Source: Coralliovum pocilloporae
Lineage (GTDB): Bacteria > Pseudomonadota > Alphaproteobacteria > Rhizobiales > Cohaesibacteraceae
Length of the DNA: 64,000 nt
NCBI RefSeq assembly: GCF_030845175.1
Contig: NZ_CP132542.1
Span: 620,001-684,000 of the forward strand
Direction: 5' to 3'
The notes under the pieces: generated by a model
Databases searched by the model: none
What the model saw: only the letters and a program-made list of their open reading frames with translations
What the model was told of the DNA's origin: nothing
Program-made: the position numbers and the translations under genes
Shown: one piece after another, positions 9,798 through 16,573 of the stretch
How positions within the stretch are numbered: position 1 is the first letter of the stretch
Layout of the letters: every line of letters starts with the position of its first letter

Positions 9798-9985
9798 CGG
9801 AAAATCAAGGTGCCGCCTGCGGGCGGAGAATTGGGAAGCCGGTGAAAATCCGGCACTGCCCCCGCAACGGTAAGGACGGGCAGAACGTGGCAAAAACCAC
9901 TGGGTTTGAGGAAATCCGGGAAGGTGCCATGTCGGTCGCGAGACCCCGTCCAAGTCCGGAAACCAGCCTTGTTTGTCAACGTCAA
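9798..9985 (+). promoter_or_regulatory. Cobalamin (AdoCbl-type) riboswitch upstream of gbcAB
   Basis: The conserved cobalamin aptamer is clear. AAGGTGCC opens it near 9808, GGGAAGCCGGTG lies near 9833, the B12-box core GCACTGCCCCCGCAACGG occupies 9853-9870, a CCACTGGG-type stretch is near 9898, and the closing element AAGTCCGGAAACCAGCC lies at 9952-9967. The orientation places gbcA 106 bases downstream. Cobalamin riboswitches almost always lower expression when B12 is present. No T-tract terminator follows; instead a hairpin can cover the ribosome binding site, which points to translational control. Confidence 0.95.
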
Positions 9986-10049
9986 CCGCGGGTGGCGGTG
10001 AACGGCGTGGATCCGGCCTGTCTTTCCGGTGCGCCCTCACTTTCGCCTG

Positions 10050-10084
10050 CCTGTATTGCCGCGGGGTAGCGGCAGAAAATCAGG
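10050..10084 (+). promoter_or_regulatory. Hairpin able to sequester the gbcA ribosome binding site
   Basis: TGCCGC (10057-10062) pairs with GCGGCA (10069-10074) around a GGGGTA loop. The flanking CCTG (10050-10053) can pair with CAGG (10081-10084), which contains the likely Shine-Dalgarno just before the ATG at 10091. This is the expected expression platform of a translationally acting cobalamin riboswitch. The pairing is seen in the sequence; the function is inferred. Confidence 0.6.
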
Positions 10085-14980: not shown

Positions 14981-15037
14981 ATCTGTCTTCTTTCATGACT
15001 TCAAAAGGCCATCTCTGGCCGCATCTGCAATTCAGGG

Positions 15038-16573
15038 TCAGTACCAGGCGTCCGGCATGGAGGCTTTGCGCTGCTCGACAAAGGCTTTCAGCTCTTCGTC
15101 CTTGGCCACATCCATCTCCGGCAGCTCATAGGTATCCAGCAACATGTTCCAGCGCTCATAAGCCCGGCGGGCCGTATCTTTCGAACCCATCTCGGTCCAC
15201 TGCTCAACGCTTTCCGAATCAGACATTCTGGCGTCGTAATAGGCTGTCTCGTAATTACCCATCGTATGCCCGCAACCGAGGAAGTGACCACCCGGCTCCA
15301 CCTCGTGATACGCTGAGCGGGCCAGACCGTTATCGTTGGTTTCGATGCCGTTCAGAACCACAGCCATGGCCCCCAGGCGGTCAGCATCAATCACCAGCTT
15401 CTCAAAGCCCATAGACAGACCGCCTTCCATCCAGCCCGCGGAATGAAGCACGAAGTTCGCCCCGCCCAGGACCGTGGAATGGATGGAATCCGCGCTTTCA
15501 AATGCAGCCTGTGCATCCGGGACCTTGGAAGCGGTCAGCGAACCACCACAGCGGAGCGGCACACCAAGACGGCGGGCCAGCTGGCCGATAATGTAGTTGG
15601 ACATGACCGGCTCCGGCATGCCGAATGTTGGTGCGCCGGATTTAAGGCTCATGGATGAGAGGAAGTTCCCCAGAATGAACGGAGCGCCCGGGCGGACCAG
15701 CTGGCTGAATGCCCCGCAGGCCATCCCTTCTGCCAGCGCCTGGGCAATCGCCCCTGCCGTAGTGACAGGGCCCATCGCGCCGCCGAGAACAAATGGAGCA
15801 ACGACAATTCCCTGATTGGCCCCGCAATAGACCTGGATGGCCTCGGACGCGACCTTGTCCACCAGCAGAGGCGAGTTTGTGTTGACGTTCCCCATGATGA
15901 CGCATTTCTGCTCAAGGGTATCTGCCCCGTGTAGGATGCGCGCCATTTCAACGGAATCTTCTGCTCTTTCTTTCTCTGTGATTGCGCCCAGCATCGGCTT
16001 GGTGCTGTAGCGCATGTGGGTATAGAGCATATCCAGATGGCGCTTGTTGACCGGCACATCACAGGGCTCGCAGGTCACAAAGCCCGAGTGATGCAGCGAC
16101 GGCAGCATGGCCGTGATTTTCACAAGCTTCTCGAAATCCGCCATGTTGCCATAGCGGCGGCCACCTTCCAGATCACGCACAAATGGCGCCCCGTACATGG
16201 GTGCGAAGATCGTATGCTTGCCGCCAATCTTCACCGAGCGCCCCTCATGGAAGGCATGCTGGGTAAACTCAGAGGGGATGGTCTTCATCAGCTCCTGAGC
16301 CATACCCTTTGGCAGGCGCACACGTGTGCTCTTTACATCGGCCCCGGCATCCTTCCAGATTTCAAGCGCTCTCGCATCATCCCGGAATTCGACCCCGATT
16401 TCCTGCAGTAGCCAGTCTGCCTGGTTCTCCAGATCAACCAGCCCTTCCTCTCCGAGAAACTCGAAATAGGGAATCTTGCGGGTGATATAGGCAGGAGCAT
16501 CCACCACGGCCCGCTCTGCACTCGCTCCACTTCCACCGCGCCGTCTGCGCGACCGTCCTCTGGTATCCGACAT
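15038..16573 (-). CDS. MttB-family (trimethylamine methyltransferase-like) methyltransferase, non-pyrrolysine
   Basis: 511 residues. MttB superfamily barrel protein. Family members move a methyl group from a quaternary or tertiary amine to a corrinoid protein; the non-pyrrolysine member MtgB of Desulfitobacterium uses glycine betaine. The reading frame has no internal TAG, so no pyrrolysine is encoded. Features are a very basic glycine/arginine N-terminus (RGRSRRRRGGSG), IFAPMYGAPFVRD near 119, a GNVNTNSPLLVD stretch near 226, and ILGNFLSSMSLKSGAPTFGMPEP near 298. It is the first gene of mttB > dmgdh and diverges from a LysR gene. No corrinoid protein or reactivase gene is nearby. The substrate is inferred from context. 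Confidence 0.85.
   Translation of the reverse strand: MSDTRGRSRRRRGGSGASAERAVVDAPAYITRKIPYFEFLGEEGLVDLENQADWLLQEIGVEFRDDARALEIWKDAGADVKSTRVRLPKGMAQELMKTIPSEFTQHAFHEGRSVKIGGKHTIFAPMYGAPFVRDLEGGRRYGNMADFEKLVKITAMLPSLHHSGFVTCEPCDVPVNKRHLDMLYTHMRYSTKPMLGAITEKERAEDSVEMARILHGADTLEQKCVIMGNVNTNSPLLVDKVASEAIQVYCGANQGIVVAPFVLGGAMGPVTTAGAIAQALAEGMACGAFSQLVRPGAPFILGNFLSSMSLKSGAPTFGMPEPVMSNYIIGQLARRLGVPLRCGGSLTASKVPDAQAAFESADSIHSTVLGGANFVLHSAGWMEGGLSMGFEKLVIDADRLGAMAVVLNGIETNDNGLARSAYHEVEPGGHFLGCGHTMGNYETAYYDARMSDSESVEQWTEMGSKDTARRAYERWNMLLDTYELPEMDVAKDEELKAFVEQRKASMPDAWY

Follow-up and report, generated by a model that had tools for sequence, protein, structure and literature searches.

In the genome of Coralliovum pocilloporae, a gene pair resembling gbcA-gbcB, predicted to encode the oxygenase and reductase of a betaine-type N-demethylase, is preceded by a cobalamin riboswitch. 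The locus was analysed within a stretch of 64,000 nucleotides (contig NZ_CP132542.1, positions 620,001 to 684,000, forward strand), here termed the window; coordinates are window positions unless another locus (L) or a genome (G) is named. The riboswitch and the two genes, together with two hairpins in the gbcA leader, are arranged as follows:

9791..9985, + strand: cobalamin riboswitch aptamer (RF00174), 117.8 bits, model positions 1-189 of 189
9985..9999, + strand: conserved hairpin directly 3' of the aptamer, P13/L13-like; stem paired in 97% of alignment cells (20 leaders)
10058..10073, + strand: conserved hairpin just 5' of the gbcA Shine-Dalgarno region, candidate expression platform; 95% of alignment cells paired (20 leaders)
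10091..11326, + strand: gbcA-like gene for a Rieske oxygenase, the oxygenase subunit of a betaine-type N-demethylase; Rieske (PF00355) and Ring_hydroxyl_A (PF00848) domains
11332..12417, + strand: gbcB-like reductase gene; FAD, NAD and 2Fe-2S domains

A preliminary description of this DNA had placed a cobalamin riboswitch on the plus strand before gbcA-gbcB, and the Rfam covariance model bore this out with a full-length match (E = 6.9e-29) far above the gathering score of 31.5 bits. The aptamer is separated from gbcA by 105 bases. An alignment of 26 aptamers (24 located before gbcA and two others from the window genome) contained sequences changed on both sides at 15 of the 34 predicted pairs. 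The GCGGG motif of the P13/L13-like hairpin is complementary to a conserved CCCGC in the aptamer, which we took as loop L5; from this complementarity, and from the usual architecture of the class, we infer a candidate L5-L13 contact. The GCGGG hairpin is conserved in 20 aligned leaders, and its loop bases hardly vary. In the hairpin next to the Shine-Dalgarno region two pairs showed a change on both sides, which is modest support. Both counts refer to 20 of the 26 leaders then known and to these two short hairpins only. Thus, with modest covariation, the leader hairpins fit translational control with the usual L5-L13 contact, and the sign of the response, OFF with B12, is presumably that of known cobalamin riboswitches.

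The NCBIfam models for GbcA (NF058607) and GbcB (NF058606) were the best matches of the encoded proteins, and the combination of Rieske and Ring_hydroxyl_A catalytic domains with an adjoining reductase gene corresponds to the GbcA-type layout. Judged by their sequences, both proteins are members of these families, and for the window GbcA our assignment goes no further than a betaine-type demethylase within the GbcA/Stc2 family. The GbcB-like protein scored 379.4 bits, below the curated cut-off of 500. The nearest solved structures to the window GbcA were 3n0q (770 bits) and 3vca/4qup (655 bits); we take the latter to be Stc2, the substrate of which is presumably proline betaine. In the GbcA tree, 3vca fell into a separate clade that is mostly LysR-linked and lacks the riboswitch. 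The entry 3n0q, named as a putative aromatic-ring hydroxylating dioxygenase, grouped with the riboswitch-linked GbcA rows; it is 79% identical to the window protein and may serve as a structural representative of riboswitch-linked GbcA.

The arrangement of riboswitch, gbcA and gbcB recurs in other genomes. A scan of named genome contigs yielded at least 592 relatives, of which the best 80 were taken as named gbcA loci and screened for two riboswitch motifs, in the right order, directly upstream of gbcA. The riboswitch was found in this position in 23 of the 80, the genera being Leisingera, Sulfitobacter, Pseudophaeobacter, Pelagimonas, Shimia, Ruegeria, Phaeobacter, Loktanella, Marinibacterium, Roseibium, Marivivens, Pacificoceanicola, Fuscibacter and Gemmobacter (14 in all), plus loci L061 and L118. 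Two of three gbcA-carrying relatives from the window's own GTDB family (G007 and G008) had it as well, as did five of 23 further GbcA loci from a search of the phylum (L130-L133, L136). Among 295 genomes of the family of G029, the exact leader pattern occurred 12 times (three already known), and 10 of these matches preceded gbcA, adding seven new places. The pattern misses true copies, such as the riboswitch of G028, and counts based on it are therefore lower bounds; in an even draw of 385 genomes across the class, with few per family, only the window genome matched. Including the window, 38 genomes carry a riboswitch before gbcA, each confirmed by Rfam, while none of seven non-riboswitch gbcA loci checked gave an Rfam match. 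The spacing between riboswitch and gbcA was similar where compared. Primorskyibacter flagellatus (L056) retains a decayed riboswitch before gbcA (9744-9790; the match is truncated and scores 32.0 bits) and is grouped here with the non-riboswitch loci. At L164, a second cobalamin riboswitch (950-1142, minus strand) diverges from the one before gbcA.

We clustered the neighbours of the 23 other riboswitch loci, some of which are short (e.g., 4 kb for L061). The flanks of the 24 loci were mostly unshared, apart from nrd genes in four and a pair of Roseibium loci, so that the unit can be delimited as riboswitch-gbcA-gbcB. On a GbcA tree of 106 rows (31 labelled as riboswitch-bearing, two PDB rows removed, L139 omitted as too short), built by a quick method with long-branch warnings, the riboswitch label changed nine times, with at least seven changes forced by supported branches; an earlier tree of 108 rows, 26 of them labelled and L121-L143 unscreened, also gave nine. 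The pairing was therefore gained, lost or transferred repeatedly.

Pairs of class I and class II ribonucleotide reductases are known to be controlled by cobalamin riboswitches. The same strategy governs methionine synthesis, where MetE, which works without B12 and is the counterpart of MetH, is repressed through such a riboswitch (PMC9600662; for metE as a riboswitch-controlled isozyme see also PMC2211319). Genes of one or both kinds were found beside riboswitch-gbcAB in five loci (L118, L043, L044, L047 and L055). In Rhizobiales bacterium Y(2018) (L118), a Rieske gene (882-2111), metE (2374-4695, minus strand), nrdAB (5595-9616) and gbcAB (9971-12281) follow one another, accompanied by four distinct RF00174 matches (581-776 +, 4933-5185 -, 5289-5485 + and 9682-9884 +), and metE, nrdAB and gbcAB each have a cobalamin riboswitch of their own. 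L044, L047 and L055 carry a second riboswitch before class I ribonucleotide reductase genes adjoining riboswitch-gbcAB, the genes being identified by Pfam in L044 and by membership of the same clusters in the other two. In L043, nrdF adjoins gbcB, its leader lying beyond the sequence compared. The additional Rieske gene of L118 encodes a protein 34% identical to the window GbcA and has its own riboswitch (581-776); it is perhaps another B12-independent demethylase backup.

A B12-dependent route of betaine demethylation was described in aerobes in 2025, namely MtgBCDE, a glycine betaine demethylase and split methionine synthase known from Ruegeria pomeroyi and Phaeobacter inhibens; in R. pomeroyi, proteomics and mutants showed that MtgC and MtgD are needed both for the demethylation of glycine betaine and for making methionine (PMC12478193). 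The window genome harbours an mtgBCDE-like cluster at 506-520 kb (L022), unlinked to gbcAB, with genes for an MtgC-like corrinoid protein, a methyl-tetrahydrofolate:corrinoid methyltransferase, a RACo/RamA-like corrinoid activase, an MttB, a dimethylglycine-dehydrogenase-like (DMGDH-like) protein and a homocysteine methyltransferase. Its MttB grouped with orthologues from Roseibium and the same family (support 100/100), and with 4yyc and Ruegeria rows at 80/89. In Roseibium (L053 and L054), homologues of MtgC, MtgD and RACo are encoded directly upstream of riboswitch-gbcAB on the other strand, head to head with it. Co-occurrence was assessed in 50 of the 80 named loci (the 23 with riboswitch and 27 hand-picked from the other 57) plus G000, G007, G008 and G009, a sample that predates 12 riboswitch genomes found later (L130-L133, L136 and the L164-L175 search). 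Matches to both MtgC (at least 73% identity) and MtgB (at least 57%) were present in 25 of 26 riboswitch genomes, including that of the window, versus 19 of 28 genomes in which gbcA lacks an intact riboswitch; the sole miss, G007, is 64% complete. MetH was detected in 7 of the 26 and 19 of the 28, counts that come from weak matches in long frames and no MetH model. Together with the MtgB/MtgC co-occurrence, the metE and nrd neighbours support the reading of gbcAB as an isozyme.

On the opposite side of gbcAB, a second module converges on it:

12512..14980, - strand: DMGDH-like gene; DAO, FAO_M, GCV_T and GCV_T_C domains
15038..16573, - strand: MttB-superfamily methyltransferase gene, first of the module; PF06253, 698 bits
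16699..17601, + strand: LysR-type (GcvA-like) regulator gene, divergent from mttB and conserved with the module; 243.8 bits, GcvA cut-off 288

Domain searches agreed with the gene order given in the preliminary description, i.e. mttB followed by dmgdh on the minus strand, convergent with gbcAB. That account had also seen in these genes the B12 route paired with gbcAB, so that vitamin state would select one of two demethylation routes for a single substrate, and had proposed looking for the pairing in related genomes. Its premise of a riboswitch before a B12-independent betaine-type demethylase stood, recurring across the 14 named genera; the partnership with the facing mttB-dmgdh did not, and we set it aside. 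None of the 23 other riboswitch loci compared had an mttB facing gbcAB, and the lysR-mttB-dmgdh module occurred away from gbcAB in six riboswitch genomes (L144, L147, L149, L152, L154 and L155). These regions were picked as MttB matches about 50% identical to the L022 MttB and do not represent a survey of all MttB genes. L152 lies about 200 kb from the gbcA of L048, apparently on the same contig, and the other five are apparently on other contigs; in L147, L154 and L155 the gap between mttB and dmgdh is about 1.1-1.2 kb. In the MttB tree, the facing MttB joined the six module MttBs (100/100) within a group of 13 rows (99/99) that excludes the L022 MttB, and it did not group with the MttB proteins of mtgCDE clusters. 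The unlinked mtgBCDE-like cluster is thus the likelier B12-dependent partner, the facing mttB being tied to the riboswitch by adjacency in the window only and the DMGDH-like gene probably lying outside the cassette. The facing MttB may demethylate betaine or another quaternary amine. Compared with its six homologues, the window module is 83-93% identical in DMGDH over its length, 62-64% in MttB and 48-51% in LysR; the high DMGDH identity may reflect recent transfer or unusual constraint. Elsewhere, L045 has a different MttB gene upstream of gbcAB, and in L058 gbcAB is faced by a DMGDH-family gene (41% identity) with no mttB.

We propose that the unit of riboswitch and gbcA-gbcB would provide a B12-independent, O2-dependent betaine N-demethylase as a backup isozyme of the B12-dependent MtgB-MtgC-MtgD route. 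With corrinoid plentiful, the aptamer would be bound, the L5-L13 contact would form and the gbcA ribosome-binding site would be hidden, while betaine methyl groups would pass through MtgBCD to tetrahydrofolate and methionine. With corrinoid short, gbcAB would be translated and betaine demethylated with O2 and NADH, releasing formaldehyde. The computed riboswitch, genes, recurrence, B12-independent isozyme neighbours and MtgB/MtgC co-occurrence are the basis of this proposal; its predicted parts are translational control of the OFF type, the identity of the substrate and the switch in physiology. Overall, we regard it as likely that GbcAB is a riboswitch-controlled backup for the MtgBCD betaine route, with glycine betaine the most likely substrate, and the predicted choice by B12 between two routes of betaine demethylation has good support from comparative genomics.

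Several observations weigh against this proposal. The GbcA-like protein scored 504.9 bits, below the curated GbcA cut-off of 670, and in the tree it lay closer to 3vca (Stc2) than to the proteins that exceed this value; because of these two points, glycine betaine as the substrate is not proven. None of the nine loci above the GbcA cut-off (L121-L129) had the riboswitch, 57 of the 80 named loci lacked an intact one, and L098 and L099 have gbcAB without it, even though a riboswitch-led glutaredoxin-like gene of the nrdH cluster lies about 3 kb away (its riboswitch confirmed by Rfam in L098). Two of the 12 leader-pattern matches (L165 and L171) were true riboswitches without gbcA downstream. Single-sequence folds of the leader disagreed and revealed no common expression platform, and hairpin support was modest. 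The association with MtgB/MtgC (Fisher p 0.002 without G007 and 0.012 with it) ignores kinship, most riboswitch genomes being Rhodobacterales, and since MtgBC was present in 19 of the 28 genomes without an intact riboswitch, possession of both systems does not require one. The MetE N-terminal domain was found in 2 of 54 genomes; the remaining 52 lacked it, so that most would also need methionine under B12 starvation. A CobN-family match (PF02514) was present in 48 of the 54 genomes and in 22 of the 26 with riboswitch, and hence many may make B12. PF02514 also catches BchH, which makes the CobN count an upper bound.

Among the alternatives, the same isozyme logic might apply to another substrate, proline betaine or another quaternary amine, with another of the 12 MttB paralogues of the window genome as partner, possibly the facing mttB. 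The proximity to Stc2, the number of paralogues and a facing mttB that adjoins a DMGDH-like gene, in a module present in six riboswitch genomes, lend this some weight. However, Stc2 belongs to a different clade, the mttB-dmgdh module does not adjoin gbcAB in the six other genomes, and Roseibium has mtgC beside riboswitch-gbcAB. Furthermore, some gene families recur beside non-riboswitch relatives, either a 679-aa flavin-oxidoreductase-like one together with a TetR-like one or soxBDAG-like genes (all assigned by eye), and none of these was seen next to gbcAB in the 24 riboswitch loci compared. We therefore consider this alternative possible but doubtful. Betaine is known to stimulate the industrial production of B12 by fermentation, and gbcAB could instead belong to the B12 regulon in order to feed B12 synthesis, being raised at low B12 to supply glycine for 5-aminolevulinate or methyl groups. 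The frequent CobN-family match in riboswitch genomes would accord with such a role, but four of the 26 (G027, G028, G035 and G038) have no such match, and the metE/nrd neighbours in L118, L044, L047 and L055 are B12-independent isozymes rather than B12 synthesis genes, which makes this role unlikely. That the riboswitch is a relic without function, left before gbcAB by rearrangement of a B12 gene, as the degenerate copy in L056 and the two leader-pattern riboswitches without a clear downstream gene might suggest, is highly improbable in view of 38 intact copies before gbcA, which have different flanks and, where compared, similar spacing, of the compensatory changes seen within the aptamer and of an association that repeats on the GbcA tree.

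Further observations concern the surroundings. L165 and L171, whose riboswitches are of the gbcA-leader type with no clear downstream gene, both have a UvrD-type helicase-like gene (by eye) beside them, and an ABC ATPase gene of L061, metal-type by eye, is led by a riboswitch that lies 3' of gbcB. The 3.918-Mb window genome contains at least four cobalamin riboswitches (from the scoring of 150 of 251 first-look candidates). Besides the one before gbcA, these include one before an ABC/Peripla_BP_2/FecCD uptake system and two that stand head to head in L024 (genome positions 1910000-1929000), before a DUF4198/CbiM gene set and before a ZnuA-type metal ABC transporter. The same genome (G000) has 12 MttB-family genes versus two PF02607 matches, one of them the MtgC-type corrinoid protein, and one corrinoid protein may therefore serve many MttB proteins. 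Just upstream of the riboswitch, at 6162-9633, lie 5-oxoprolinase-like pxpABC and a D-amino-acid transaminase-like gene, for which no link to the riboswitch unit was found.

In its logic the unit resembles the class I/II ribonucleotide reductase pairs and metE/metH (PMC2211319, PMC9600662), as the riboswitch stands before the B12-independent member. It differs in its target, a Rieske demethylase of two components that belongs to osmolyte catabolism and not to methionine or deoxynucleotide synthesis, and in the B12-dependent counterpart proposed for it, a corrinoid methyltransferase with several subunits. The window genome carries a cluster of the MtgBCDE type known from R. pomeroyi and P. inhibens; the available text of PMC12478193 treats GbcAB as the route of other genomes, and its main text names a riboswitch only in a reference title. 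Stc2 of Sinorhizobium and GbcAB of Pseudomonas and Chromohalobacter (PMC12478193) belong to the same families of Rieske oxygenase and FAD/2Fe-2S reductase. The window GbcA is closer to Stc2 than to the proteins above the GbcA cut-off, yet it falls into another clade, and its gene has a riboswitch in place of the regulators adjoining many relatives. Among the matches listed for the open-access literature, as far as their text was available, there was no report of a cobalamin riboswitch on gbcAB. The gene pair is a new target of a known regulatory strategy.

With somewhat more reserve than for the backup role itself, we think it probable that the isozyme strategy of cobalamin riboswitches, besides MetE and the B12-free ribonucleotide reductases, has a third general target in GbcAB, and that alphaproteobacteria choose between corrinoid-dependent and oxygen-dependent demethylation of a major marine osmolyte by corrinoid level. 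The cassette would then move between genomes as a unit and join metE and nrd in islands of B12-free isozymes, and the second Rieske gene of L118 would hint at oxygen-dependent backups for other MttB-type pathways. Glycine betaine is an abundant marine osmolyte. If the proposal is true, B12 would directly switch the flow of carbon and nitrogen from betaine as well as the release of formaldehyde, the presence of both systems in some genomes would be accounted for, and in carriers of the cassette, mtgC mutants grown with B12 would underestimate betaine use.

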